The position numbers and the translations under genes are program-made. A stretch of 24,719 bases of DNA from the IMG/VR virus record IMGVR_UViG_3300012954_000072, positions 1 to 24,719 of that record. The stretch is one strand, 5' to 3'. The notes under the pieces were generated by a model. The model worked only from the letters and a program-made list of their open reading frames with translations, did not search any database and was not told the DNA's origin. The DNA is from a virus. Below are positions 7,301 through 24,719 of this stretch, in pieces (positions within the stretch are counted from its first letter, which is position 1; the number at the start of each line of letters is the position of its first letter).

Positions 7301-9496
7301 GCAGGTAGTACAACAGGTACAGACTTTGCACTAGAAGACGCAGTATCACAAACATACTATATAAGAGTAAGAGTATTCAATATGCTAGGTAAAGCATCGC
7401 CAGTAGTTTCTGGTACTTTTGATGTAAACTTCCAGACAGTAAACTTAGGAGAAGAAGACGAAGGTGCACAATATACTGTAAATAAAACAGGTACACTAAC
7501 TAATGCTTCTATTGAACTAAATACTACAACAGGACTTGTAAGTTTTACTCCTGATGATTTTAATTACTCAGCACTTGGAGCAACTACTACCGTATCAAAT
7601 CAATCTAATCTAGACTTTAGTGGATTATCAAATGGTGAAACAGGATTTATACTATTCGATAAAAGTGCAGAAGCTTTCGTAGCAAGAGAAAAACATAGTG
7701 CCTCTGACGCATACTTTGCAGTTGGTGGCTCTCCATATGCTACCGCAACAGGTACAATCTCAGCAACACAAAGTGATATTGGTAGAGATGTAACAGGTAG
7801 TGGCACAGCATTTAGCAGTGAACTTGCAACATTTAATCCATTCAAAGCAACAGTTAGTTCAGTAGATTATTACTTCAGAGCAGGAGAAATATCAAGCAAC
7901 ACAGCACTTGTAGCAGACGAGCCGATACCTGTAGATATATCAGGTGGTGCTTTCTCAAAACCAACTACTCTAGTTGACTATGCCAATGATAGTATATTTG
8001 GGTCAGTCAAAAGAAACAGTTCTACAAGTTATACACTAACTCTATTCGGAGTTACTAAAGGTGAGCCCGCATATAATGTAGCAGGAAGTAATGAAAACCA
8101 TACTTTCTTATCTTCAGATTCATCAGGAACTTTATCAAGTTCTGTGATAAATGCATTTAGTTGTTCTTATACAGTATCGAAAGGTACGACTGCATTTAGT
8201 TTTGCATCAAGTGGAACTGCAGCAGCAACATTTGGTTTATCAATATCTGCCTCTGGTTGTACTGCCGCAGTAAGTGGAAGTGGTGTAATTACAGTAAGTG
8301 CAGTTGCATCAAGTTCTGCTACAATTACAGTAACAGTCTCAGACTTAGCGGCAGGAAGCACAATTGCTACAAGAGTTATTACACTAACAAAAGCATTGAA
8401 AGGAACAGATGGAGTTGTAGGTAGTGATGGTGATGATGGACTAAGGTCAATACAAGGTTATCTATACTACGAGAAAACAACATCAGGAGCACCAAGTGCG
8501 CCAGGCTCAACTACTTATAGATTCGCTACCGGAGATGTAGACGGTGGTAGTGGAGCAACAGAAGTTCTAGCATTAGCAGATACTTCTGCAGTAAATAAAT
8601 GGACAAACGAACCAAGAACACAAGACCCAACACAAAACACTCATTGGACTGTAAGATATTTTGGAACAGAATCTAGTGCAGGTTCATCAACTTGTACTGT
8701 AAGTTATAGTACTATTGTACAACATACAAACTTCTCTGGAGTAGTTACTTTTAGTGACGGAACTTTTAGTGAGGGCGGAACAGCAATTACAACTATTGAT
8801 GGTGGTAATATTGCTACTGGAACAATCACAGCAGATAGAATAAAATTATCTGGAACTGGTGGTCTTACTATTGGAAGTTTAACAAATGATAGTGGCTTTG
8901 TCAATACAACACAAGCCGCTGCAGCAGCACCAATACAATCCATAAATGGTTCAACAGGTACCGCAGGAGCAGTAACTATTTCAGCATCAGGTCTGAATAT
9001 AACAAGTAGTGATGTTTCAGGACTAGGCGATGCAGCAACATCATCTATATCTAGCATTAGGTCAGGGACAACTGCATCAGATGTTGGACTTGGAAATGTT
9101 GATAATGTAAGTGCCTCAACTATACGATCTGGCACAACTGCATCAGATGTTGGACTTGGAAATGTTGATAATGTAAGTGCGGCTACTATTAGGGCAGGTA
9201 CAACTAAATCAGATGTTGGGTTAGGAAATGTAGATAATACTTCAGCCGCTGACATACGAGCAGGAACAACTGCAGCAGATGTTGGATTAGGAAATGTATC
9301 TAACTTAACTACTGCACAAGTAATTCAAACACTATTTACAGCATCAACATCAGTTACAGCAGGTAGAATAAAACTCACATCAGGTACTACACAATTTTTA
9401 TCAGATAGTACTACTGCTGTTGCAAACAACTCAATAGATATAGATTCAAGAAGTGGAAACGGAGGCCCGCGTATAGTTATAGCGGATAGTTCATAA
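4337..9496 (+). CDS. Tail tip / host-specificity protein, lambda gpJ-like
   Basis: About 1,719 residues, longer than lambda gpJ (1,132). Chosen start is the ATG at 4337 (MTREEIKLSKKF). The upstream ATG at 4259 would add only a frame-shadow of the GGN tract; a TTG at 4358 behind an AGGGAAG motif is an alternative. Layout: Gly-rich linker (~18-32); gpJ core with EGPIKGLVHG near the start; the conserved LMTNKRYGLG block near 505; a fibronectin III-like region (~930-1035); beta-rich, Ser/Thr-rich segments; a short collagen-like GTDG/GDDG stretch (~1356); GGNIATGTITADRIK (~1485-1505); four 22-residue repeats (from residue 1574) and a fibre-like tail. In lambda gpJ binds the host receptor, so the divergent C-terminal third is the likely receptor-contact region (inference). 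Confidence 0.9.
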   Translation: MTREEIKLSKKFKPIIIRGSGGGKGGGGGSSYAADDNLFARQSATFIDAIAEGPIKGLVHGDASIFIDETRLRDVDLATGNISKTANFDNFEVVTANGLANQTPDGRFFAEFPTAAIVEQKSGTVLKDGEPQYFTISSSQFEKRNADYLKVTIFTNAMVRLVKTGKQKGDQHETSVNFSIKLRYVNNAGTTKTATMFNTGFRGKCTAKYAHTFGFNIEDIKDDEGILDWAIEVTRLSGSPSSDDNNQVSNDIFVESIEASIADKLEYPFTAYVAGNIDAENFNSIPKRGYEIDGKLISVPTNYVPCDYDGLKLTVASTSSFQTGESISQGITASALGGTRDTETKKQTATITINGGHGLPVGNIIQLTVAGASVSNYNGTFDCIVTSTTKITYEVPLDSEASDLASPSGTITVSVASMVIDKIVGSTTIYVRGRASTRDVPITGGTITGATSSATTTVSAVEKTFIPAHYRRSPSTEKITTTEQDWDGSFYQSWSNNPAWILYDLMTNKRYGLGNYITAAQINKWELFGIGRYCDELVPANIPAADFLSLFATSDANYIPSGSTGLHEPRFAANVVLQTKAEAYKVISDLASVMRGMIVWKNGEAVVIQDSEKDPVYQFSNSNVINGEFEYEGSALKSRSNQVIVTWNNPKDLYRKREEYVENEEVLQLDDDFVKPSKLVAFGCTSRGQARRLGKWKMLSENLNTQTVSFKTSINASFLQPGDIINVLDKRKQGKSWGGRISAVTDTNTFTLDREFALDSGYAVGDYKVSISFSGQKCLLAQDSATIGGSSFVRGDIISGITTIEASQKIQDDSGNTVFTQFTPYSYVEEKTLATIDGTSNGKTTITVSGNYSTAPVVDQMFVIQRPSLSTGKTEQVAQQFRVVSLAEDEDMSFSITALEYNPTKFDNVDKNEPIKEYNTLFLPNSGDSVPNVTKLRTSTSQRLLSDGVKTNVLDITWEEPKNADGSSYAFVREYVVEYSTDNVKFLTAGSTTGTDFALEDAVSQTYYIRVRVFNMLGKASPVVSGTFDVNFQTVNLGEEDEGAQYTVNKTGTLTNASIELNTTTGLVSFTPDDFNYSALGATTTVSNQSNLDFSGLSNGETGFILFDKSAEAFVAREKHSASDAYFAVGGSPYATATGTISATQSDIGRDVTGSGTAFSSELATFNPFKATVSSVDYYFRAGEISSNTALVADEPIPVDISGGAFSKPTTLVDYANDSIFGSVKRNSSTSYTLTLFGVTKGEPAYNVAGSNENHTFLSSDSSGTLSSSVINAFSCSYTVSKGTTAFSFASSGTAAATFGLSISASGCTAAVSGSGVITVSAVASSSATITVTVSDLAAGSTIATRVITLTKALKGTDGVVGSDGDDGLRSIQGYLYYEKTTSGAPSAPGSTTYRFATGDVDGGSGATEVLALADTSAVNKWTNEPRTQDPTQNTHWTVRYFGTESSAGSSTCTVSYSTIVQHTNFSGVVTFSDGTFSEGGTAITTIDGGNIATGTITADRIKLSGTGGLTIGSLTNDSGFVNTTQAAAAAPIQSINGSTGTAGAVTISASGLNITSSDVSGLGDAATSSISSIRSGTTASDVGLGNVDNVSASTIRSGTTASDVGLGNVDNVSAATIRAGTTKSDVGLGNVDNTSAADIRAGTTAADVGLGNVSNLTTAQVIQTLFTASTSVTAGRIKLTSGTTQFLSDSTTAVANNSIDIDSRSGNGGPRIVIADSS
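9056..9319 (+). repeat. Four tandem 66-bp repeats in the gpJ C-terminus
   Basis: Units begin at 9056, 9122, 9188 and 9254, each encoding 22 residues of the form IR(S/A)GTTxSDVGLGNVDNxSA. Units 1 and 2 share a 47-base identical stretch (9068-9114 and 9134-9180), implying recent duplication or conversion. The SDVGLGNVDN motif is familiar from phage tail-fibre shafts. The last unit is the most diverged. Confidence 0.95.
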
Positions 9497-10008
9497 TGGC
9501 AAATAGAGTTTTAGTAGGAAAAATGGGTAGTGACTTTGGAATAAAAGTTTCAAAGGAAGGTTTTGATGTTACAACAACAGCAGATAAAAACTTATTATTT
9601 GACTCTACTGCTGGAAGAACAGGACTTGTGTATGCAGGAGCAACAGGATTACAATTAGCAAATAGTTCAGATAATTATCTAACTACAGGAAGTAAAACAA
9701 GTTTAGGATATCCTCCAATAGTAGTATTTTCAGAAAGAAATAATGGACTTTTACTATATGGAGATACAAATGCAGGTGGAGGTGAGGTTTCAAATGTGAG
9801 TGTATGGAAAACAACTACATCAACAGTAACGCCTTGTACTGCAAATGTAGCGCAAGAAGTCTCACAAGTATTCTTTGGAGTAAGACCTACAGATGGTAGA
9901 AACTATGACCAAGTTAACTCATCAAAAGAAGATGCATTTGATGTGAGTTATTTTGTACTAAGAATACCATGTGCATGGGGATATATGAATAGTACATATT
10001 TTGGATAG
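9496..10008 (+). CDS. Small structural protein, MANR-module family (copy 1)
   Basis: 170 residues. The first ~40 (MANRVLVGKMG, VSKEGFDVT, LLFDS) align with the starts of the next two genes, so this is the first of three tandem paralogues in the N-terminal module. The rest is unlike the other two, with a beta-rich, Cys-poor C-terminus ending in Tyr/Phe/Gly. Probably a virion protein attached near the tail tip through the shared module (inference from position). One-base start overlap (TAATG) with gpJ. Confidence 0.8.
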   Translation: MANRVLVGKMGSDFGIKVSKEGFDVTTTADKNLLFDSTAGRTGLVYAGATGLQLANSSDNYLTTGSKTSLGYPPIVVFSERNNGLLLYGDTNAGGGEVSNVSVWKTTTSTVTPCTANVAQEVSQVFFGVRPTDGRNYDQVNSSKEDAFDVSYFVLRIPCAWGYMNSTYFG

Positions 10009-10011
10009 ATT

Positions 10012-10476
10012 ATGGCAAATAGAATATTAATAGGAAGAGGATCAACTGCAAGAGGAACAAGTAACTACGGTCTATGGGTAAGTAGACCTGGAAAAGATGT
10101 TACTACTTGTACAGCAGATGAATTAATTTTTGATACAGATGCAGGAGGGTCAACTGATATAAAAGGATTATTTCAGTTACAAAATGTAGACACAACGGCT
10201 ACAACTCCTGTTACTTCAGGAACTACAGGTAGTGTAGCACAAGGAGCAACAGCAACAGTTTCTTTTTCAAATTTTAACTGGGCAAATGGAATTATACCTT
10301 TCTTTCGAGGAGGATTTAATCTTTCAGGTTCTGGCTCAAACCAATCTATAACTGCAAATAATTTTACAATTAATTCTTTTAATACATCAAGTGCAACTAT
10401 AACAAATGTATCAGGTGGCTCAGCAAATTTAAGATTTGCGATATTACCTAGTTTTTCAGCAAATGCGAGGTTTTAA
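10012..10476 (+). CDS. Small structural protein, MANR-module family (copy 2)
   Basis: 154 residues. It starts MANRILIGRG, then YGLWVSRPGKDVT and LIFDTDAG, the same module as copies 1 and 3 but with a short insertion after GRG. The C-terminal ~100 residues are Ser/Thr/Asn-rich with alternating hydrophobics, compatible with a small beta-sandwich or fibre head. Three bases separate it from copy 1, and it overlaps copy 3 by one base. No enzymatic motif seen. Confidence 0.78.
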   Translation: MANRILIGRGSTARGTSNYGLWVSRPGKDVTTCTADELIFDTDAGGSTDIKGLFQLQNVDTTATTPVTSGTTGSVAQGATATVSFSNFNWANGIIPFFRGGFNLSGSGSNQSITANNFTINSFNTSSATITNVSGGSANLRFAILPSFSANARF

Positions 10477-11087
10477 TGGCAAATAGAGTATTATTAGGTA
10501 AACGTGGGACTAAACAAGGTGTATTTGTTTCAAGGTCTGGAGTAGATGTAACAGATTCTACATCAACAACTCCTTTGTCTTTTGATTCAAATGCAGCATC
10601 AAGTTTAATTGTTCATTCATATGGAGAATGTATATTACCTGCATATAATGATACAACAGGACAAAATTTTACAAGAACATGGAATGGAGTAACTTATAAT
10701 AACTATGAAAAAACCATAACACATAACTTAGGATATATTCCTGCTTATTGTGTTAGATGGAATACTTTAGACCAAGTATCAGGAGGAGGAACTAGTGCAG
10801 GTTCTGGAACAGGAACAGTAGACACAACTTATACTCCTGTCTGGACTACTCTTACAGAAGAAGAATGTATTGAAGAATCTGATGATGGAAACTGTGAAGA
10901 ATTTGAAGAAGTATTTTCAGGCGATGGAGGTCTTTATACTGAAATCAGTACAACTACCTTATTTATGGAAAATGCTATGAGAAGTTATATTCAGCAAGTA
11001 GGCCTAAGTGCTCACGACTCTTCCGTGTTAGTAGTGGCGTACGTAATTTTTAAAGAAGAGAATTTTTTAAACGGAGAAAGTTTTTAA
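10476..11087 (+). CDS. Small structural protein, MANR-module family (copy 3)
   Basis: 203 residues. It starts MANRVLLGKRG, VFVSRSGVDVT, LSFDS, the shared module. A THNLGYIPAY motif (~88-97), a pattern frequent in phage tail proteins, follows. A strongly acidic stretch with two Cys (EEECIEESDDGNCEEFEE) lies near 128-145 and might bind a divalent metal; this is speculative. One-base overlaps (TAATG) on both sides. Most likely a tail-associated structural protein. Confidence 0.78.
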   Translation: MANRVLLGKRGTKQGVFVSRSGVDVTDSTSTTPLSFDSNAASSLIVHSYGECILPAYNDTTGQNFTRTWNGVTYNNYEKTITHNLGYIPAYCVRWNTLDQVSGGGTSAGSGTGTVDTTYTPVWTTLTEEECIEESDDGNCEEFEEVFSGDGGLYTEISTTTLFMENAMRSYIQQVGLSAHDSSVLVVAYVIFKEENFLNGESF

Positions 11088-14672: not shown

Positions 14673-17447
14673 ATGTCTCTCATAGGAAAACAAAACGCAT
14701 TAGTCTCTACCCTTGAGGCGAACGCAGTCGGAACTACTGAGATAGTCAGTAATTCCATAACTGCCAGTGAGATAGCGGCAAACGCAGTAGGTTCAAGTGA
14801 AATAGCAGAAAACGCTGTTGGCACTTCCGAAGTTGCAACTAACGCTATTGGGGCAGCACAATTACAAGATACAGCGGTTACAGCTGTAGCAGATAATGCA
14901 ATCAACACAGCAGCATTGGGTTCAAACTCAGTAGATTCTGCTCAATTAATTACAGGTAGTATTGATACAATACATATTGGCTCAGGTCAAGTAACCACTG
15001 CAAAGATAGCCGCAAATGCTATTACTTCAGCAGAGATTGCCGCAAACCAAGTTGGTAGTTCAGAGATAGCAGGTAATGCTGTTACAGGAACACAACTTGC
15101 CGCAAACTCAGTTGATAGTGCAGAATTAGTAACAGGTAGTGTTGATACTATACATATAGCAGCAGGAAATGTAACCACCGCTAAGTTAGCAGACGATGCA
15201 GTAACTAGCGCTAAGATTGCAGATAACGCAATCTTGACACAACACATAGACGATGGTCAGATAACAACAGACCAAATTTTAGATGGCACAATAGCAACAG
15301 GCGATATTGCAGATGATGCAGTAACAGCCGCTAAATTAGCAGCCAATGCAGTCGTATCTGGAAGTATAGCAAACGGTACGATTGTAACAGCAGATTTAGC
15401 AAACAATTCAATCACATCAGCCAAGATAGTAAATGGTACTATTGTATCAGCAGATATTGCTGCAAACACTATTGCTACTGGTAATATAGCAGATAATGCA
15501 GTAGATGGTACTAAGATAGCACAAAACTCTATCTTAACAAAACACATTGATGATGGACAGATTACAACCGACCAAATCTTGGACGGAACAATAGCGACTG
15601 GAGACATAGCAAATAATGCAATAACTTCAGCAAAGATAGCAGCAAACGCAGTAGGTAGTTCAGAACTAGCAAATAACTCTGTAACAGCAACACAGATTCC
15701 AAGTGGAACTGTAACTGCGGACTTACTCGCTGCAAACTCAGTAGATAGCGCAGAACTAGTAACAGGCAGTATTGATACAATACATCTTGGAGCAGACCAA
15801 GTAACAAGAGCAAAGATAGCAGCAGATGCAGTCGGAGCCGATGAGTTAGATAGTTCAGCAAACTTTACAGTATCAGATTTAACAGTTTCAGGTAATCTAA
15901 CAGTATCTGGAACAGAAACAGTTGTTTCATCAACAACACTAACAGTTGCAGACCCAATGATATCATTAGCAACAACCAACAACTCATCAGACGCAGTTGA
16001 CATTGGTTTCTATGGACTATATGATGATAGTGGGTCACAAGATGAATATGCTGGTATATTTAGAGACGCAAGTAACTCTAGATGGACATTCTTTAGAAAT
16101 TTACAATCACAACCAACCACAACAGTTAATACTAGTGGAACAGGTTACGCACAAGCCGATATTGACTTTAACATGGGTTATGGTAATATCACAGGTAATG
16201 TTACAGGTAATGCTGATACAGCAACTGCATTAGCAACAGGAAGAACTATTGGAATGACAGGAGATGTCGTTTGGACATCTGCATCTTTTGATGGTAGTGG
16301 AAATGTAACAGGCTCAGCAACAATACAAGCAAGTGCTGTAGAAAACAGCATGATTGCAGATAATGCTGTAAACGGTTCAAAGATTGCGCAGAACAGTATT
16401 CTAACAAAACATATAGATGATAGTCAGATTACTTCTGCACAGATATTAGATGGTACAATTGCAACAGGCGATATAGCAAACAATGCGATTACAGCGGCTA
16501 AGATAGCACAGAATGTTGTTGGAGCAAGTGAGATTGCTCAGAACTCTATCGGAGTTATACATATACCTGACGGTTTAATTACAACTACACAGATAGCAGC
16601 AAACACTATTGCTACTGGAGACATAGCAGATAATGCTGTCAACGGTACAAAGATTGCATCAAATAGTATTCTAACAAGACATATTGATGATGGGCAGATT
16701 ACTACTGACCAGATACTAGATGGAACAATCGCAACAGGAGATATCGCTGATGATGCAATAACATCAGGTAAGATAGCAGCGAATACCATAGCAACAGGCA
16801 ACATTGCAGATAACGCAGTAGACGGCACAAAGATAGCACAGAATAGTATTCTTACTAAGCATATCGATGACGCACAGGTTAATACTGCTCAACTAGCAGG
16901 TAACTCTGTAACAGCGGCAAAGATACAAGCAAACGCTGTCGGAGCAAGTGAAATATCAGCAAATGCTGTTTCATCTTCTGAACTTAAATCAGATGCTTTA
17001 TCTGGACAAACAATGACAGGTAATGTTACTTATAGTGGTCAAATAAATGGAGCAACAATAGTAACTACAGGTAATGTAGGTGTTCAAGATAGTAACCCAC
17101 CACAAATGTTACATCTTGACGAAGTTGCTGGTTTCCATACAGGTACAGCAAGTTCAACTGCAACATCACAGTTTACAGTAGATTCATTTAGTGCATCAGC
17201 ATTTAGAACTGCTAAGTATTTAGTACAAGTAGTAAACTCAACTGATGGTGACTATCAATCTTTAGAGATAGTATTATTCCATGATGGGTCAACCGTTTAT
17301 CTTACACAGTACGCTTCTATATTTGACAATGGTGCGCAAGCAACATTCGATGCTGATATATCAGGTGGTAATGTAAGGTTAAGAGCAACGCCAGCATCAA
17401 CAGACACAATGGCGTATAAGTATATCAGAACAACGATAGAGGTATAA
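14673..17447 (+). CDS. Decapeptide-repeat fibre protein
   Basis: 924 residues in four parts. Residues ~17-394 form 38 consecutive repeat units, 37 of ten residues and one of eight. Residues ~395-553 form a non-repeat domain (GNLTVSG, DPMISLATTN, DIGFYG, YAGIFRDASNSRWTFF) of a type found in cyanophage fibres. Residues ~554-773 form 22 further decapeptides. The end is a ~150-residue C-terminal domain (LEIVLFHDGSTVYL, MAYKYIRTTIEV). Unit consensus is (N/G)x(V/I)xxxx(I/L)xx, with hydrophobics five residues apart, compatible with a long beta-helix shaft. Likely a long fibre or spike. Start is one base after the previous stop. Confidence 0.85.
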   Translation: MSLIGKQNALVSTLEANAVGTTEIVSNSITASEIAANAVGSSEIAENAVGTSEVATNAIGAAQLQDTAVTAVADNAINTAALGSNSVDSAQLITGSIDTIHIGSGQVTTAKIAANAITSAEIAANQVGSSEIAGNAVTGTQLAANSVDSAELVTGSVDTIHIAAGNVTTAKLADDAVTSAKIADNAILTQHIDDGQITTDQILDGTIATGDIADDAVTAAKLAANAVVSGSIANGTIVTADLANNSITSAKIVNGTIVSADIAANTIATGNIADNAVDGTKIAQNSILTKHIDDGQITTDQILDGTIATGDIANNAITSAKIAANAVGSSELANNSVTATQIPSGTVTADLLAANSVDSAELVTGSIDTIHLGADQVTRAKIAADAVGADELDSSANFTVSDLTVSGNLTVSGTETVVSSTTLTVADPMISLATTNNSSDAVDIGFYGLYDDSGSQDEYAGIFRDASNSRWTFFRNLQSQPTTTVNTSGTGYAQADIDFNMGYGNITGNVTGNADTATALATGRTIGMTGDVVWTSASFDGSGNVTGSATIQASAVENSMIADNAVNGSKIAQNSILTKHIDDSQITSAQILDGTIATGDIANNAITAAKIAQNVVGASEIAQNSIGVIHIPDGLITTTQIAANTIATGDIADNAVNGTKIASNSILTRHIDDGQITTDQILDGTIATGDIADDAITSGKIAANTIATGNIADNAVDGTKIAQNSILTKHIDDAQVNTAQLAGNSVTAAKIQANAVGASEISANAVSSSELKSDALSGQTMTGNVTYSGQINGATIVTTGNVGVQDSNPPQMLHLDEVAGFHTGTASSTATSQFTVDSFSASAFRTAKYLVQVVNSTDGDYQSLEIVLFHDGSTVYLTQYASIFDNGAQATFDADISGGNVRLRATPASTDTMAYKYIRTTIEV
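14721..15854 (+). repeat. Decapeptide repeat block 1 (30-bp period)
   Basis: 38 units in frame, all ten residues except one octad (TAVTAVAD). Typical units are NAVGSSEIAE, NAITSAKIAA and GTIATGDIAD. A 40-residue super-unit (NAVDGTKIAQ, NSILTKHIDD, GQITTDQILD, GTIATGDIAD) occurs within it and again in block 2. Synonymous codons differ between units, so the pattern is kept at protein level. Confidence 0.93.
16332..16991 (+). repeat. Decapeptide repeat block 2 (30-bp period)
   Basis: 22 decapeptides with no length exception, from SAVENSMIAD to NAVSSSELKS. The block includes further copies of the 40-residue super-unit (around 16362-16481, 16632-16751, and a variant from 16812). It is separated from block 1 by a ~480-base non-repeat domain. 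Confidence 0.93.
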
Positions 17448-17449
17448 CA

Positions 17450-17665
17450 ATGGGACAGAAATTAGATTTTAACATCGAAGACGCAGGTATCAAAATTGAT
17501 GGAACACAAGCAATTGACTCTAGTAGAGCATTTCAAGGGTCAGTTAGTACTGACAAACTTGGAAGTGGAACTATAGCAAAGTCAAGACTACCGTTCACAA
17601 TCACTACTACTGCACCTACTGGAGTAGGCAGTACAAATGATGGTCACATTTTCTTCGTATATTAA
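17450..17665 (+). CDS. Small hypothetical virion protein
   Basis: 71 residues (MGQKLDFNIEDAGIKIDG ... DKLGSGTIAKSRLPFTITT). The GSGTIAKSRLP portion echoes the decapeptide style of the preceding fibre, and the ending NDGHIFFVY is typical of short phage fibre-associated proteins. Two bases after the previous stop. Probably an adaptor between the two giant repeat proteins, or a chaperone; neither can be shown from sequence. Confidence 0.68.
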   Translation: MGQKLDFNIEDAGIKIDGTQAIDSSRAFQGSVSTDKLGSGTIAKSRLPFTITTTAPTGVGSTNDGHIFFVY

Positions 17666-17677
17666 TAGAGGAATATA

Positions 17678-20515
17678 ATGGGAATATTTGTTAATGATGG
17701 CGGAACACTCCGAACTATCAGATTTATTGCCGTCAATGACGGTGGAACTCTTAGACGAGTAAATCAGGTGTTCGTGAACAACGGCGGCTCTCTTGAAGGG
17801 CCGTTTAGTGCTGTGCATGAAACAAGTAGGTCTACAAATACAGAAACAACCTATATCTCAGGAACACAAGAAACTGCTTTTGCAACAAATACAACCTTTG
17901 ATACAAACAGGGCAACAGATACTGTAACCACATTTAACACTACTAGAAGTACAGATACAACTATCTCTACAACAAGAGCAACTACAACTGTATTTAATAC
18001 AACTACAACTTATAATACTACAACAACCTTTGAGACATCACAGGCTACCACAACTACATTTACTACAACAACGCAGTATACAACAACTACGACTTATAAT
18101 ACAACTAGGTCTACAACTACGACTTTCACTACTACAACTCTGTTTAATACAGAAACAGCGTATCAAACAACTAGGTCTACAACTACGACTTTTGATTCTA
18201 ATACTACCTATACAACTACAACTACTTTTGATACAACTAGGTCAACTACAACGACCTTTGAAACTACAACTGCGTTTAATACAACAACGACTTTTGAAAC
18301 TACAAGGTCTACAACTACTACGTTTACTACTACAACAAATTATACTACAACTACAACCTATAATACTACTAGGTCGACTACTACTGTATTTAATACAACA
18401 ACAAATTATACAACAACTACAACTTTTGAGACAGATAGGTCTACAACTACTTCGTACAATACAACTACAACCTATACGACTTCGTATGACACGACGATAA
18501 CAACAACTAGGAATACTGGTTTTACAAATAGTACAAACACAAGTAGAGGAACAGCAACAAGTAGAAGTACAACAACTGCGTATGATACAACTACTGCTTA
18601 CGAAGATAATACAAATACTTCTAGGTCTACAAATACAAGTAGAGATACAGCAACTGCTTACGAAGATAATACCAATACTGCTAGGGTTACAAATACAGCA
18701 AGAGATACAAGTACCGCCTACGAAGACAACACAAACACTGCTAGGTCTACAAATACCTCTAGAAATACTGGATTTACAAACTCTACATCTTATGGTACAA
18801 GTAGAAACACTAATACTGCTCGAAACACAAATACATCGAGAGCAACAGCCTATACAGATAATACAGGATTTACAAACAGTACAAATACAAGTAGGGGTAC
18901 AGCTTACACAGATAATACAGGGTTTACAAACTCTACATCTTATGGAACAAGTAGAGCAACAGGATTTACAAACTCTACAAACACTTCTAGAAACACTAAT
19001 ACTGCTAGGGGTACAAGTAGAAATACCAACACTTCTAGAGGCACAAGTAGGTCAACAAGTTATAACACCTCGTTTACAAACTTAACATTTACTTTATCAA
19101 CAGAGGAAGAAGAAAGCGGAACCTTTGTAAACACAGAGGAGTTTAACACTAACACCTCTAGAGCAACAAGTAGGAACACCTCGTATACTACATCATTTAC
19201 AAACTCAACAAGTTATAATACTTCGTTTACAAATGCAACAGGGTTTACGAATAACACAAACACAAGTAGGAACACCGCCTACAATACTTCTAGAAATACC
19301 AATACTGCTAGAGGTACGAATACAAGTAGGAACACAGGATTTACAAATAATACAAATACTGCCAGAAGTACAAACACTTCTAGAAATACAGGATTTACAA
19401 ATTCAACAGGGTTTACAAACTCTACTGGATATAACTCTACAAGAAATACAAATACAAGTAGAGCAACAGCGTATACAGATAATACAGGATTTACAAACGC
19501 TACAAACACAGCGAGAGATACAAGTACTGCCTATGAAGATAATACAGGGTTTACTAATGTAACTAATACAACTAGAAATACAGCAACTGCTTATGTAGAT
19601 AATACTGGTTTTACAAATAATACAAATACAAGTAGAGCCACAGGTACAAGTAGAAGTACAACAACTGCTTATACTACTACAACTGCTTACACAGATAATA
19701 CTTCTACAACTAGAGGTACATCTTATGAAACAGCATATGGTACAAGTAGAACTTCTTCAAGAGCAACAGGTACAAGTAGAGCAACTACAACTACATTCAA
19801 TACTTCTAGTGGAACTGCTACAAGTAGAGCGACAGCAACAAGTAAATCTACAACTACAACATTTAATACAAATACTACAACAGCAACAAGTAGAGGAACA
19901 GAAACAAGTAAGAATACTACAACTACATTCAATACTTCTAGTTCCACAGGTACAAGTAGAGCAACAGATACAAGTAAGAATACTACAACGACTTATGCTA
20001 CAACTCTTGGAACACTTACAACAAGAGCAACAGCAACAAGTAAATCTACAACGACTGCATTTGATACTACAATTACAACAGGTACTTCTGCATCAACAGA
20101 TACAACTAAGTCTACTACAACTACATTTAATACCGATACTACAACAGGTACAAGTAGAGGCACAGACACAAGTAGGTCAACTTCTACTACATTTAATACA
20201 ACAGAAACAACTGCTACAACTAGAGCAACAGCGACAAGTAAGTCTACTACAACTACATTTGAAACTGCATTTGCTACAACAACTACATTTGAAACAACTA
20301 GAACAGAAGAAGCAGGTACAACAACAACATTTGAAACAACAAGAGCAACAGACACAACAATTACAACTGACCATCTGACAGTATTTGCTACTGCAACAGA
20401 TACAGTTGTTTACGAAAGAATAACAGCCAGCTCAGCAGGAACAATATTCGATACTGAAGTATCAAGCGCCTCCGATTTAGGGGCTTCCTTCTGGGACGGC
20501 TCTAAATGGAGTTAA
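17678..20515 (+). CDS. Giant Thr-rich repeat structural protein (mucin-like)
   Basis: 945 residues. The N-terminal ~45 hold three copies of a VN(D/N)GG(T/S)L module, probably for attachment. Residues ~50-890 are low-complexity Thr/Ser/Asn/Arg, from roughly one third to two thirds Thr in sampled stretches, with Phe/Tyr at regular spacing. Three zones can be seen: a block of 22-residue units (FxTTRSTTTTF type), an irregular zone of ~6-residue NTSRxT/GFTNST motifs broken by one acidic insert (STEEEESG), and a second 22-residue block (TSRATATSKSTTTTFNT type). The last ~55 residues are non-repetitive and end WDGSKWS. GAGGA ribosome site 5 bases upstream. Similar Thr-rich proteins occur, from memory, in marine phages; function unproven, likely a fibre or surface protein. 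Confidence 0.85.
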   Translation: MGIFVNDGGTLRTIRFIAVNDGGTLRRVNQVFVNNGGSLEGPFSAVHETSRSTNTETTYISGTQETAFATNTTFDTNRATDTVTTFNTTRSTDTTISTTRATTTVFNTTTTYNTTTTFETSQATTTTFTTTTQYTTTTTYNTTRSTTTTFTTTTLFNTETAYQTTRSTTTTFDSNTTYTTTTTFDTTRSTTTTFETTTAFNTTTTFETTRSTTTTFTTTTNYTTTTTYNTTRSTTTVFNTTTNYTTTTTFETDRSTTTSYNTTTTYTTSYDTTITTTRNTGFTNSTNTSRGTATSRSTTTAYDTTTAYEDNTNTSRSTNTSRDTATAYEDNTNTARVTNTARDTSTAYEDNTNTARSTNTSRNTGFTNSTSYGTSRNTNTARNTNTSRATAYTDNTGFTNSTNTSRGTAYTDNTGFTNSTSYGTSRATGFTNSTNTSRNTNTARGTSRNTNTSRGTSRSTSYNTSFTNLTFTLSTEEEESGTFVNTEEFNTNTSRATSRNTSYTTSFTNSTSYNTSFTNATGFTNNTNTSRNTAYNTSRNTNTARGTNTSRNTGFTNNTNTARSTNTSRNTGFTNSTGFTNSTGYNSTRNTNTSRATAYTDNTGFTNATNTARDTSTAYEDNTGFTNVTNTTRNTATAYVDNTGFTNNTNTSRATGTSRSTTTAYTTTTAYTDNTSTTRGTSYETAYGTSRTSSRATGTSRATTTTFNTSSGTATSRATATSKSTTTTFNTNTTTATSRGTETSKNTTTTFNTSSSTGTSRATDTSKNTTTTYATTLGTLTTRATATSKSTTTAFDTTITTGTSASTDTTKSTTTTFNTDTTTGTSRGTDTSRSTSTTFNTTETTATTRATATSKSTTTTFETAFATTTTFETTRTEEAGTTTTFETTRATDTTITTDHLTVFATATDTVVYERITASSAGTIFDTEVSSASDLGASFWDGSKWS
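17963..18490 (+). repeat. Eight tandem 22-residue (66-bp) units, Thr-rich block A
   Basis: Units begin at 17963, 18029, 18095, 18161, 18227, 18293, 18359 and 18425 with no indels. Consensus is (F/Y)xTTRSTTTTFxTTTxYxTTTT: aromatics near positions 1, 11 and 17 and Arg (Gln in unit 2) at 5. Codons for Thr vary (ACA, ACT, ACG, ACC) between units. Confidence 0.93.
19754..20281 (+). repeat. Eight tandem 22-residue (66-bp) units, Thr-rich block B
   Basis: Units begin every 66 bases from 19754. Consensus is TSRATxTSKSTTTTFNTxxTTx, with basic residues near positions 3 and 9 and an aromatic at 15. Unit length equals that of block A and of the gpJ repeats, although the sequences differ. Confidence 0.93.
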
Positions 20516-20518
20516 TGA

Positions 20519-20695
20519 ATGGCAGGATTTAAAAAGAACGAAGTCACTCCTGAGTATGTAAATAAGAAACTCGAGAGTATGATGAGCGCAATCTTCGATA
20601 CCATAGGTGAAAACGAAGACCGCATGAAAAATATAGAAAAAAGATTATTTGAATTAATTCAAGAGGTTAAGGAATGGAAGAAGGCAGACCAATAA
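20519..20695 (+). CDS. 58-residue coiled-coil protein
   Basis: The frame runs from ATG at 20519 to TAA at 20695, with GGAG at 20508-20511 as ribosome site. The protein (MAGFKKNEVT ... EVKEWKKADQ) is highly charged and helical, with heptad-like hydrophobics in the second half (MKNIEKRLFELIQEV). It fills the space between the Thr-rich gene and the next CDS, overlapping that CDS by 22 bases. Size and helical nature recall phage spanin, holin-accessory or fibre-chaperone proteins, but it has no membrane segment, so none of these can be claimed. Confidence 0.7.
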   Translation: MAGFKKNEVTPEYVNKKLESMMSAIFDTIGENEDRMKNIEKRLFELIQEVKEWKKADQ

Positions 20696-21585
20696 AACCT
20701 AATAAACCTCTTGAACAAATGAGTATACATGAGGAGTTAGGAGATATCCCAACTCACTTTATGAAATCAGGTAGTAGTTTTAGACCTAAGAAAGATTTAG
20801 AACTACTTAATAAATTCAAGAAAAGAATTATACCTGAATCTCATAGAGGAGCACCTTTTGAATATGACTTATGGTTTAATACTAATGAAGTCAAAACTAT
20901 AAGGGGCTGGTTATATACTGACTTTCTTGGTAAAGGTATTTACATGAGAGTTAGTTCAGTAAAAATTAATGATAAAATCTTACAAAGTATCGTTGATTCA
21001 GATATAAAAATTGATGAAGAACGAATTAGTAAGATAAAAGCAAACTTACAAAACAAGTATTCATTACAATGGAATACAGAGTTTTATGACAAAGTTATCT
21101 TTCCGCCAGGCAGTAACTTAATGAATGGCCCATTGATTAACTTTAGAAAAGTCAAAGAACTCGTAAAAGAGCAAGGTTTTAAAGTAAAACCGCACCCAAT
21201 AACTGCTCCTGTTTGGATAGCAAAATGGAATATGGAAGTTGGGGCAGAAAATGTTTTACATAAAAAAGAGGGTGGGTATGAACTACTACTTAATTGTAAA
21301 GAAGTAGCAACCTGTCCAAATAGTGAAATGGGAATCATCGCACTATTATTAGGAAAGAAATTACAACTAGTATCTAATCCTAGAAAGATAAGAGAAAAGA
21401 AACTCGTTACATATGAAAGTTTCTATGCAGCATGTAGCAATACAAAACACTGCACAGCTTACGATGCAATATGTAAGATTCTCTCATCAAAAAGGTCTGG
21501 TATAATATTTGACTTTGATGATGATGCAGAGGATAGAATGGAAAGGTATTTAGATAATTTTTGGGAGTATAAAATACACAAATGA
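20674..21585 (+). CDS. Predicted GT-B-like glycosyltransferase (capsule polysaccharide type)
   Basis: 303 residues, no signal peptide or membrane segment. Two motifs recall the nucleotide-sugar half of capsule/Kdo-transferase-like (KpsS/LipB-type) enzymes: VKPHPIT (171-177) and CPNSEMGIIALLLGKK (214-229), the latter matching the usual NS(E/T)xGxEALLLGKP pattern. Both follow the expected order. The N-terminal half is not recognised. Start supported by AAGAGG 7 bases upstream. It overlaps the 58-residue gene and joins the next by ATGA. It would work in the cytoplasm on host surface glycan or on a virion protein; the acceptor is unknown. The call rests on two motifs only. Confidence 0.55.
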   Translation: MEEGRPIKPNKPLEQMSIHEELGDIPTHFMKSGSSFRPKKDLELLNKFKKRIIPESHRGAPFEYDLWFNTNEVKTIRGWLYTDFLGKGIYMRVSSVKINDKILQSIVDSDIKIDEERISKIKANLQNKYSLQWNTEFYDKVIFPPGSNLMNGPLINFRKVKELVKEQGFKVKPHPITAPVWIAKWNMEVGAENVLHKKEGGYELLLNCKEVATCPNSEMGIIALLLGKKLQLVSNPRKIREKKLVTYESFYAACSNTKHCTAYDAICKILSSKRSGIIFDFDDDAEDRMERYLDNFWEYKIHK

Positions 21586-22586
21586 TTGATATAGCAATAT
21601 TATATAAGAAAGACTACACAGCTTTCACACTAGCGTCTCTACTTGATAAGTCGGAGGAGTTCCGCGTGCACCTATATTTTAAATGGGGAGAGTGGGACGA
21701 GGTCTTAGTAGAATGGGCGATGGAAAACTTTAGAGATATTAAATGCTATCAATTACCAGGAATAAGTAATAATATTTCTAAGATGATACTTCATATGCGA
21801 AGATGGTATATGGATAAACCAGAATCACAAAGACCAAGTAAAAGACTTATGGTTATTACAGGTAATAACATATTCAATCCAGGTAAACTGATTAGTGGAC
21901 ATATACCACCAGAGTCTTACTTTGAAAATAAAGTTGGGGTACTAAACAGAAAACTAATGTATAGACAACACCCAGCATATAAAAATTACTATAACATTCT
22001 AAAAATTAATCATAAAGTTCCGCAAGGAAAGAATATAACTGATGCGCAATGGGAAAGTGTAGCATTTAAACAATATGATTGGGATATGTTTATGGTAAAC
22101 TACGACGCATTGATGAAGATGAGAGATGGGAACTTGTTCTTTAAGGGTGGAACTCATTTTGCAACTAGATTCAAGGGCGAACCACAAATAGATGCGTACC
22201 TAAACAACTGCAGTAATGTAGTATTTTTTAGGGCGTTGATGAAACTCAAACCAGTAGATATGCCTTTGTATATGGACGGTAGACTTGATAAGTTAATTAA
22301 GTTAGACGCTATCGGACCAAAGGACTGTATCAATCACAATATAATGTTAAGAAAGTCATACTCAATAAATATAGACCATAGTGTATTGATGTCTGATTAT
22401 TATTCATTACCAACAGGGATTCAACTAGCAACACCATTCGAACTCTATGGAAACTTGATAGACAAGATACCATTGAATCTAAGAAATGCTAGATTGAATG
22501 AACAAATTCTTTTAAAATCAGAAAAACAAAAGATTACAACTAGAAAGTTAGTTCAGGCGGGTTATAAGTTAGGTAAAATCGACTGA
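21582..22586 (+). CDS. Hypothetical protein, possibly glycan-related
   Basis: 334 residues, not recognised. The N-terminus (DIAILYKKDYTAFTLASLLD, then VHLYFKWG) alternates strand and helix like the start of a GT-A-type transferase, but no clear DXD is visible. The closest acidic pair is YMDGRLDK near 227. It is coupled by ATGA to the GT-B-like gene, which suggests a related job. Its last 18 bases overlap the 3' end of the convergent GT29-like gene. Soluble, rich in Lys, Asn and aromatic residues. Confidence 0.6.
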   Translation: MIDIAILYKKDYTAFTLASLLDKSEEFRVHLYFKWGEWDEVLVEWAMENFRDIKCYQLPGISNNISKMILHMRRWYMDKPESQRPSKRLMVITGNNIFNPGKLISGHIPPESYFENKVGVLNRKLMYRQHPAYKNYYNILKINHKVPQGKNITDAQWESVAFKQYDWDMFMVNYDALMKMRDGNLFFKGGTHFATRFKGEPQIDAYLNNCSNVVFFRALMKLKPVDMPLYMDGRLDKLIKLDAIGPKDCINHNIMLRKSYSINIDHSVLMSDYYSLPTGIQLATPFELYGNLIDKIPLNLRNARLNEQILLKSEKQKITTRKLVQAGYKLGKID

Positions 22587-23225
22587 TTTTTCCTCGAGGT
22601 CTGACAAAATTTTCCAATCCAAAATATTTTTTCGAACCAAATCCATTACATAGCCTCGTTCTGTGGCTCCCATATGGGGATTCTCATTCACTGTATTTAT
22701 CGGAAGATGCCACGAGTATGGTATAGCATTCCCTACTTTGAAACCAGCGTCTTTGGCGAAAAAGTCAAATCCTATTAATGACAATTTTTTCCATACATGA
22801 ACCATACGAGTGAAAAATAAGATTGAAATAAATCCATTTGAAGGACGCTTTGCATGGAAGTCGTTATTTTTTATACCGAATTCTTTATAAATAGATTTCA
22901 ACTCGTCATCTGTAAACATAGTTATCCAGTCTTTTCCAATTTTATGTCTTGACACATCGCTGTCTAAATCAACTCTCGCTCTGTTTAAGAGTTTAAGTGC
23001 CATTGGATAATATATTTGATGTTTACTTCTAAGAAAACCAGATATCCATATATCAGTACGCTGTCCTATTGATTCATACTTATCAGGGGTTGGCATACCC
23101 TTTCCAAAACGCACAACAATATCATGAGAGTCTATCCACTCTCCTTTCTTATGCTGTAATATTTCTACTGAATTTCCTACAAAGATGATTTCTTTGTCTT
23201 CAATTGTTCTGATAAGTTTATCCAT
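22569..23225 (-). CDS. GT29 family (sialyltransferase-like) glycosyltransferase
   Basis: 218 residues. Three regions match GT29 sialylmotifs in order: L (IIFVGNS, then IDSHDIVVRFGKG, 13-43), S (RPSNGF at 127-132 followed by LIGFDFF at 150-156), and VS (H184-x4-E189 in HMGATE). GT29 enzymes transfer sialic acid from CMP-sialate in eukaryotes. Unlike those, this protein has no cysteine at all, so the usual L-S disulfide is absent, and it has no membrane anchor: it looks like a minimal cytoplasmic core. The actual sugar may differ. Starts 49 bases inside the upstream GT8-like gene; no later Met would preserve motif L. Confidence 0.75.
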   Translation of the reverse strand: MDKLIRTIEDKEIIFVGNSVEILQHKKGEWIDSHDIVVRFGKGMPTPDKYESIGQRTDIWISGFLRSKHQIYYPMALKLLNRARVDLDSDVSRHKIGKDWITMFTDDELKSIYKEFGIKNNDFHAKRPSNGFISILFFTRMVHVWKKLSLIGFDFFAKDAGFKVGNAIPYSWHLPINTVNENPHMGATERGYVMDLVRKNILDWKILSDLEEKSVDFT

Positions 23226-23872
23226 TCTTTCTCGTATAGTGGGTGTTTAAAATTATTGTGGTCACCTAACCAAGGGCCACCGTCTGTAAAGTGAACTGCT
23301 TTGGCATAGTTACCAAAATCATAGTAACCTACCATAGCATTGTATGATGCGGGTAAGTCTCCAACGCCGTCAGTATCATCATGCCCTAAAGCCCATGAGA
23401 AACCATGTAGATGTACTGGGGCTGCGTTGTTGACATACCACAAACTTAGTGAATTACATAATGCATTATTGAAATACATTAGTGAAGACCAATACTTTTT
23501 CTTGTATGGTCTATTTATCTTTCCGTCCATTTTTATTTTATCTTCTAAAATAAATTGTGGGTGTTTTACACACATGACGGATTTGTGTGAATTTTTGTGA
23601 TGTACTATTTCTTGTGGGTCACATCGCCACATGAAGTCTCCATCGCAGAATAATGACCACCCAGTATAGTCAGACAGGTAAGGAACAAGAAACCTAGTGA
23701 AAGCAAACTCTGTACTTGCACTTTCTTCTTTTCTAGTATAGATACCTTGTTCCTGTAAATCAGACTTAATCAAAGGGTAAATCTTATGCGTAGGATTAAA
23801 CCTAAGTATAGATTCTTTACACACCTCAAACATTTCTGGGTGAGATGATTCATACCCTATATAGATATTCAT
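23177..23872 (-). CDS. GT8-like glycosyltransferase
   Basis: 231 residues. It starts MNIYIGYESS, then has SILRFNP, STEFAFTRFLVPYL (53-66) and the metal/nucleotide-sugar motif CDGDF (D77-x-D79). WSSLMYFNN (128-136), a GDLPASYNAM segment (171-180), and HFTDGGPWLGD (194-204) follow. This order matches small GT-A, GT8-like transferases of bacteria and phages. No membrane segment, so cytoplasmic. The start overlaps the preceding small gene by ATGA and the 3' end overlaps the GT29-like gene by 49 bases, indicating joint translation. The acceptor and sugar are unknown. Confidence 0.78.
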   Translation of the reverse strand: MNIYIGYESSHPEMFEVCKESILRFNPTHKIYPLIKSDLQEQGIYTRKEESASTEFAFTRFLVPYLSDYTGWSLFCDGDFMWRCDPQEIVHHKNSHKSVMCVKHPQFILEDKIKMDGKINRPYKKKYWSSLMYFNNALCNSLSLWYVNNAAPVHLHGFSWALGHDDTDGVGDLPASYNAMVGYYDFGNYAKAVHFTDGGPWLGDHNNFKHPLYEKEWINLSEQLKTKKSSL

Positions 23873-24084
23873 TCTTTATCTTCTGCTGTATTAAGTTGAC
23901 TACCTAAGTCATTTATATAGGCCTGTCTTGCAGTTTGAGTTAATGCTAACATATTCTGATAATGAGCAATCTGTTGGTCACATAATTGTAAGTGTCCAAT
24001 GATAGATTTCTGTTCATCATTTAAATCTGCAACATCATGCTCAACTCCATCTATAGTGATAGTTGGTTGTAACTGTTCTGTCAT
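23869..24084 (-). CDS. Conserved small protein, DUF6447-like
   Basis: 71 residues: a short N-terminal TITIDGVEHDVADLND hairpin followed by a long helix (QLCDQQIAHYQNMLALTQTARQAYI in pattern). This layout fits the small DUF6447-type proteins of marine phages and bacteria (from memory). It joins its neighbours by ATGA overlaps on both sides, between ribonucleotide reductase and the GT8-like gene. Function unknown. Confidence 0.65.
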   Translation of the reverse strand: MTEQLQPTITIDGVEHDVADLNDEQKSIIGHLQLCDQQIAHYQNMLALTQTARQAYINDLGSQLNTAEDKE

Positions 24085-24719
24085 TTAAATATATCCTGCC
24101 AATTTCCTTGTGTACTAGCCTTAGCATACTCGGTAGCACGGTTTTCAAAAAAGTTGGTATGCTCAACTGCGTTAACTTGCATATCTATCCAAGGCAACGG
24201 ATTCTCCGTGCTTTTAAAGATAGCCTTCATACCCAGACCGAGTAATCTTCTATCGGCAATGTATCGGATATATTCCTTTACTTCTGTCGCAGTTAGGTCT
24301 GGTACTGAAACTTTATTGAAACAGATGTCGATAAATTTATCTTCTAATTCTACCGTCCTTTCCGCAGCACAATAAATTTCATACTTTAATTTATCAGTCC
24401 ACAGTTCTGGATTCTCTCTCATAAAAGTTCTAAATAATTCTGATAAGCCTTCTACATGCAGACTTTCATCTCTAATTGACCATGTAACAATCTGTCCCAT
24501 ACCTTTCATCAAGTTATGTCTAGGGTAATTTAAAAGTATCGCAAAACTACTAAATAGTTGCACTCCTTCAGTAAACCCACTATAGACTGCCATAGTCTTT
24601 GCCATGTCATGTTTTGTATTCATGTTAAAATCTGTAAGATAATCATGTTTATCTGACATCGCTTGTATATCAAAAAACTCTTGGTACATATCATCTGACT
24701 TACCTAAAGTTTCTAATAG
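24081..24719 (-). CDS. Ribonucleotide reductase class I beta subunit, C-terminal part, 5' truncated
   Basis: The frame is open through the right edge of the window (ETLGKSDDMYQEFF at the edge), so only the last ~212 codons are present and the Met at 24689 is probably internal. Visible diiron ligands are the Glu of GFTEG and the Glu and His of RDESLH; the first set (Asp, Glu, His) and the radical Tyr lie outside. The subunit supplies the radical with which the alpha subunit turns ribonucleotides into deoxyribonucleotides for phage DNA synthesis. The protein ends GNWQDIFK, a common ending in phage copies. First gene seen of the minus-strand operon that includes the two glycosyltransferases. Confidence 0.92.
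   Translation of the reverse strand, partial: LLETLGKSDDMYQEFFDIQAMSDKHDYLTDFNMNTKHDMAKTMAVYSGFTEGVQLFSSFAILLNYPRHNLMKGMGQIVTWSIRDESLHVEGLSELFRTFMRENPELWTDKLKYEIYCAAERTVELEDKFIDICFNKVSVPDLTATEVKEYIRYIADRRLLGLGMKAIFKSTENPLPWIDMQVNAVEHTNFFENRATEYAKASTQGNWQDIFK

Follow-up and report, generated by a model that had tools for sequence, protein, structure and literature searches.

Does a phage that encodes a very long threonine-rich protein beside a cluster of glycosyltransferases put sugars on its own fibre, or do these enzymes serve another target? The question is raised by the window, the whole stretch of DNA analysed here, a 24.7-kb virus record (24,719 nt, 37% GC) in which a cut tail-module protein is followed by a GpJ-like tip protein (PF13550, Pfam), several tail fibres and then the genes reported below. 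We consider it probable, at roughly 70%, that the Thr-rich fibre and the adjoining GT-B-fold enzyme form a dedicated module for O-glycosylation of the virion fibre, a reading for which the observed facts are the conserved gene order, the shared repeat motif, the GT-B fold and the KxHP motif. Loci compared with the window carry L-numbers, and whole records G-numbers. Among the tail genes of the window, the GpJ-like protein closes with 66-base tandem repeats (SDVGLGNVDN peptide; 9063-9298), and three adjacent ORFs (9496-11087) that start with MANR[VI]L[VIL]G resemble tandem paralogues. The context of the Thr-rich gene includes a tail-fibre-family protein (phrog_892 in PHROGs; 14673..17447, plus strand) and, directly 5' of it, a conserved 71-aa protein (17450..17665, plus strand).

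The fibre-like protein itself (945 aa; 17678..20515, plus strand) is recognized by its composition, its codon divergence and its homologues in the same place. The Thr-rich protein announced by the preliminary description is real, with 39.4% Thr over its full length; the one third to two thirds given there for sampled stretches agrees with the 26-64% of 50-aa blocks in the core, and the blocks at the two ends hold 8% and 14%. It also contains 10.9% Ser, a single Pro and no Cys, and comprises an N-terminal VNDGGTLR domain (aa 1-47), the Thr-rich repeat region (aa 48-905) and a conserved C-terminal domain, ERITASSAGTIFDTEVSS..FWDGSKWS (aa 906-945). Compared with its relatives in L004 and L007, the ORF has 186 differences at codon position 3, against 58-59 at position 1 and 44-48 at position 2, and this piling up of divergence at third positions identifies it as a real coding gene. 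Homologues at the same place range from 668 to 3108 aa, with both ends conserved despite the variation in length; the 3108-aa version (L046, 512-9838) is 46% Thr. No match to the protein was obtained in Pfam, PHROGs or tblastn of phage records, where its repeats are masked, so that nothing is concluded from the missing matches and the C-terminal domain was used as the query instead.

Within the window protein, Thr, aromatic (F/Y) and basic (R/K) residues show regular spacings of 6 and 22 residues. The motif T-x-[FYWR]-x-T is enriched approximately 3- to 8-fold over shuffles in all 14 fibres tested (z from 2.6 in Cr30 to 28, and 17 in the window protein), and it is common to Thr segments that are borne by different N-termini and are otherwise unrelated. 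Such an alternation of Thr with aromatic residues or Arg would fit an extended strand that displays Thr on one side. We therefore do not keep the earlier term 'mucin': mucin-type sequences are Pro/Thr/Ser-rich, disordered and devoid of regular aromatic spacing, whereas here Pro occurs once and Thr alternates strictly with aromatic residues or Arg, which suggests an ordered, beta-rich shaft. The regular spacing also suits an explanation that we hold to be quite improbable, in which the Thr-rich protein would be a structural shaft free of glycans, assembled with the GT-B-fold protein as its non-catalytic chaperone. A small companion of the fibre/GT-B pair would be in keeping with that idea as well: a 58-aa coiled-coil-like ORF (20519..20695, plus strand), overlooked in the preliminary description, lies between the two genes and overlaps the GT-B start, and ORFs of 51-75 aa occupy the same place in many relatives (72 aa in KVP40, as gp255, and 57 aa in DLP6).

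The GT-B gene (20674..21585, plus strand; 303 aa, phrog_26179 in PHROGs) begins 158 bases after the fibre stop, consistent with the distance of less than 200 bases noted earlier. Its AlphaFold2 model (pLDDT 91) finds WbbB (E 8.6e-5) and KpsC (E 2e-4) as best solved matches in Foldseek (probability 1.00), with modest TM-scores of 0.34-0.42 to solved structures; among viral models it comes closest to those of other phage members, including one from Vibrio phage VH1_2019. Profile alignment places its KPHP...NSEMG onto the KVHP...SSQMG of KpsC, with a weak E of 0.05. The (K/R)XHP motif is present, K172, H174 and P175 being invariant in 36 homologues, and the invariance of KxHP across very diverse GT-Bs argues against a mere chaperone. 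The QxxxD nucleophile motif is absent from the family, whose members have F-[LP]-P-G-[ST]-N at the corresponding place as judged by eye, with an invariant Asn148 as a putative equivalent; this absence, together with that of DxD from the GT-A-fold protein described below, would suit the non-catalytic reading. In the papers on KpsC and KrkA, (K/R)XHP is the CMP site and QxxxD provides the Kdo nucleophile (PMC10148158, PMC12887879), the former site being common to sialyl- and Kdo-transferases (PMC12887879). With (K/R)XHP present and QxxxD missing, the donor is likely a CMP-sugar, and neither Kdo, nor retention, nor family membership is claimed; for want of QxxxD the enzyme is not filed as a GT99/107/140 retaining beta-Kdo transferase. 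The phage GT-B resembles WbbB (GT99), KpsC (GT107) and KrkA (GT140) in (K/R)XHP and in the S-x-x-G loop and, tentatively, in fold, and KpsC Lys133-Tyr134 may correspond to its invariant K128-Y129, but it differs from the three in lacking QxxxD, in its identity of less than 15% and in its proposed acceptor, a protein instead of a glycan or lipid.

That the nearest solved relatives work on bacterial LPS and capsule lends weight to another explanation, which we regard as unlikely: the transferases would remodel a glycan of the host surface (LPS or capsule containing Kdo) so that superinfecting phages are excluded, the Thr-rich fibre would bind that same surface, and the two genes would be kept together as a cassette for host recognition, with no fibre glycosylation. 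The distribution of the genes bears directly on this point. A scan with the GT-B as query gave 51 contigs (56-100% identity), nearly all with the order fibre, 71-aa protein, Thr-rich protein, GT-B, GT-A-fold protein and GT29, followed by optional SDR and radical SAM genes, an optional GT8-like gene, DUF6447, NrdB and NrdA. Because the loci of the window's clade are related, their counts are not independent and distant relatives matter more. Altogether 114 distinct GT-B relatives were collected, and a Thr-rich ORF lies directly upstream in 98 of the 107 that have upstream sequence (97 by the script's rule, plus L105, whose truncated Thr-rich ORF is 31% Thr); L167 has a fragment of the same Thr-rich type upstream of its GT-B. 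The paired GT-Bs fall into seven lineages with less than 50% identity between them, i.e., marine siphoviruses, DLP6-like T4-type phages (Thr-rich ORF of up to 1202 aa), Lullwater/Percy podoviruses, Cr30 and three KVP40-type groups, and the isolates that carry a GT-B are Caulobacter phages, Vibrio phages and one Stenotrophomonas phage. The link between fibre and transferase suggested at the outset is thus supported as a dedicated one that recurs in several unrelated phage groups. These lineages share the repeat motif and no receptor-binding domain, and in several of them the GT-B sits among tail, neck or terminase genes; both observations weaken the idea of a host-surface target.

In isolates, where 'directly upstream' means at most one small ORF between the two genes, the upstream ORF contains 26% Thr in Lullwater (gp41), 20% in Cr30 (gp254) and 29% in KVP40 (gp254), and a Thr-rich ORF precedes the GT-B also in Quill, BL199, QD01, VS1, F86, D479 and D484. 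The GT-B-adjacent ORF is the most Thr-rich of its genome in KVP40 (first of 322 ORFs of at least 80 aa), Lullwater (first of 40) and Cr30 (first of 200). In the Vibrio phages F86, D479 and D484 it is unannotated in public records (L411 3113-3670, L412 3167-3679 and L413 3162-3695, respectively), so the pairing is independent of annotation. Against the pairing count DLP6, L130, L131 and L136, whose GT-B lacks a Thr-rich neighbour; upstream of it, DLP6 and L131 have a different large fibre-like protein. In L152, L153, L154 and L158 a small terminase gene takes the upstream place, and the two whole records checked for this group, G001 and G002, showed no Thr-rich ORF. L158 comes from G002, which breaks off within its tail genes, so that its fibre may be off the contig. 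Where DLP6-type phages lack this neighbour, the coiled coil and GT-B are preceded by a large fibre-like protein whose C-terminus resembles an intein/Hint domain (L061 3-1655, L131 1-1638 and L150 1675-5820). Contigs of bacterial genomes yielded no relative of the GT-B, and the Lullwater GT-B as sole query returned only itself from viral contigs.

The converse searches, started from the fibre, gave the same picture. Independent occurrence of fibre and transferases in related phages had been named in the preliminary description as evidence against its proposal, and wherever downstream sequence is available, no Thr-rich fibre lacking the GT-B was found. A scan with the fibre C-terminal domain alone found 73 new loci, 72 of them with a readable fibre gene, and the GT-B adjoins it in 72/72. 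In an unrelated fibre family, defined by a YYRGG N-terminal domain, the GT-B is downstream in all 13 Thr-rich members with downstream sequence and in 0 of approximately 60 members with ordinary tails (Fisher about 1e-14, kinship ignored). The 13 Thr-rich loci nearly always also carry the coiled coil and a DLP6-gp3-type gene; three further cases of 20-22% Thr (L335, L352 and L354) have, on reading, no motif-rich tail. The pairing therefore tracks the Thr repeat and not fibres in general, contrary to what enzymes acting on the host surface would lead one to expect.

Fibre glycosylation, the reading that we prefer, has to accommodate the other enzymes of the window. The unrecognized gene said earlier to be coupled to the GT-B is indeed so, since its ORF (21582..22586, plus strand; 334 aa) overlaps the GT-B end by 4 bases. 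Its predicted fold is GT-A (model pLDDT 90; matches to UGGT, LARGE1 and glycogenin, E 4e-6 to 1e-4), and no DxD metal site and no conserved DxD column pair were found in it and its homologues, so it may be metal-independent or non-catalytic. Its homology to DLP6 gp3 (hhalign 96.7%, E 4e-10) means that a GT-A-fold gene follows the GT-B in two phage groups; KVP40 gp257 does not match the family. On the minus strand, the GT29 assignment made earlier for a 218-aa protein (22569..23225) is borne out by Pfam (PF00777, E 1.9e-8, 34.5 bits against a cut-off of 23). Its L sialylmotif was matched by profile to that of ST3Gal-I (2wnb), and RPSxG...GFDFF and H184-x4-E189, which we take to be the S and VS sialylmotif residues, are conserved in 18 homologues. 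The enzyme thus has the L motif in common with GT29 sialyltransferases such as ST3Gal-I, and its S and VS residues are invariant, but it is short (about 218 aa) and phage-borne, and transfer of sialic acid from CMP-Neu5Ac is putative. The GT8-like enzyme of the preliminary description (23177..23872, minus strand; 231 aa) stands as a gene of phrog_28018 with an invariant D77-x-D79, and has no Pfam match; annotations of its relatives read GT24-like or nucleotide-diphospho-sugar transferase, and we refer to it as a GT8/GT24-like GT-A enzyme. That two phage groups have GT29 and GT8-like proteins with intact motifs, either beside the module or elsewhere in the genome, is a further difficulty for the chaperone.

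Both minus-strand genes belong to one run of overlapping ORFs with a DUF6447 small protein (Pfam; 23869..24084) and the ribonucleotide reductase small subunit NrdB, a conserved neighbour cut by the window end (24081..24719); promoter and terminator scans were uninformative, promoter-like sites being fewer than the shuffle mean. This position beside ribonucleotide reductase could suggest that the glycosyltransferases modify phage DNA, as could the location of the KVP40 GT-B near QueC-like genes and the DNA glycosyltransferases that phages encode (Pyle 2024, cited in PMC12619734). We think this very improbable, given that in groups other than KVP40 the module was not seen in the company of DNA-modification genes, and that in most groups the GT-B is linked to the Thr-rich gene.

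The suggestion that GT29 and GT8-like enzymes share the target of the GT-B holds in part. GT29 always adjoins the module in the window's clade, and in DLP6 and two T4-type relatives it lies elsewhere in the genome. It is absent, as is the GT8-like gene, from KVP40, Cr30 and Lullwater; the GT8-like gene is missing from some sub-clades (L031-L039, L008 and L043), occurs also in phages without GT-B, and is found together with GT29 away from the fibre in DLP6, G006, G007 and G002. This lack of constancy across systems leaves the fibre and the GT-B as the core. In some systems, extension seems to be the role of the GT-A-fold, GT29 and GT8-like proteins, and it is less certain that GT29 and GT8 act on the same glycan as the GT-B. 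Some sub-clades have SDR-like and radical-SAM-like genes between GT29 and the GT8-like gene (L013 5987-7385 and L044 12702-14327), and similar ones lie between GT8 and GT29 in G002. In G007 the GT-B and GT29 are both split over two frames (L148 6001-6886; G007 9633-10305) and may therefore be broken or mis-sequenced. Synechococcus phage S-SCSM2R, which has no GT-B, carries a GT8-like relative adjoining KdsB and KdsA, i.e., CMP-Kdo supply (L068 8001-11526), a neighbourhood in line with the host-surface explanation.

In the fibre-glycosylation mechanism that we propose, the N-terminal domain would anchor the Thr-rich protein in the particle, and the long T-x-[FYWR]-x-T repeat would form an extended, probably beta-rich shaft. 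During fibre production the GT-B, with its small coiled-coil partner, would put a sugar on the repeat Thr hydroxyls, from a CMP-linked donor that might be Kdo or another ulosonic acid, and the GT-A-fold, GT29 and GT8-like proteins may extend or cap the same glycan. The presence of the Thr-rich protein in the virion and its role as acceptor are both presumed in this scheme. A more specific version, doubtful for now, would make the GT-B a new family of protein O-glycosyltransferases that transfers a CMP-ulosonic acid (Kdo-like) onto the Thr of T-x-[FYWR]-x-T, in a module exchanged among siphoviruses, podoviruses and T4-type myoviruses. On sequence evidence, our results suggest that tailed phages of marine bacteria, Vibrio and Caulobacter sugar-coat their own fibres. 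If so, virion glycosylation, known from few phage systems and mainly from mycobacteriophages, would be widespread in phages of Gram-negative aquatic bacteria and directed to a repeat substrate of its own, and a function would be assigned to GT-like phage proteins so far unannotated (phrog_26179 and the DLP6 gp3 family). Since the pair is present in three cultured phages, KVP40, Cr30 and Lullwater, a direct test is feasible.

The conserved fibre-enzyme pair appears, provisionally, to be new: the literature searched, in which subscription journals were thinly covered, returned virion glycosylation in mycobacteriophages and DNA glycosylation, and neither a pair of Thr-rich fibre and transferase nor proteomic or glycan data on virions of this kind. 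In mycobacteriophages, phage glycosyltransferases have been proposed or shown to glycosylate virion proteins, the glycans being on capsid and tail-tube subunits (Freeman et al. 2023, PMC10527164; via PMC12619734 and PMC11256854). Systems of the window type differ in pairing, gene by gene, a long repeat protein rich in Thr with a single GT-B family, and their phages have Gram-negative hosts. A repeat protein encoded beside dedicated glycosyltransferases, GtfA/GtfB, is also the arrangement of the serine-rich repeat adhesins. These, however, are bacterial, secreted and rich in Ser, and their GtfA/GtfB belong to other GT families than the phage enzymes.
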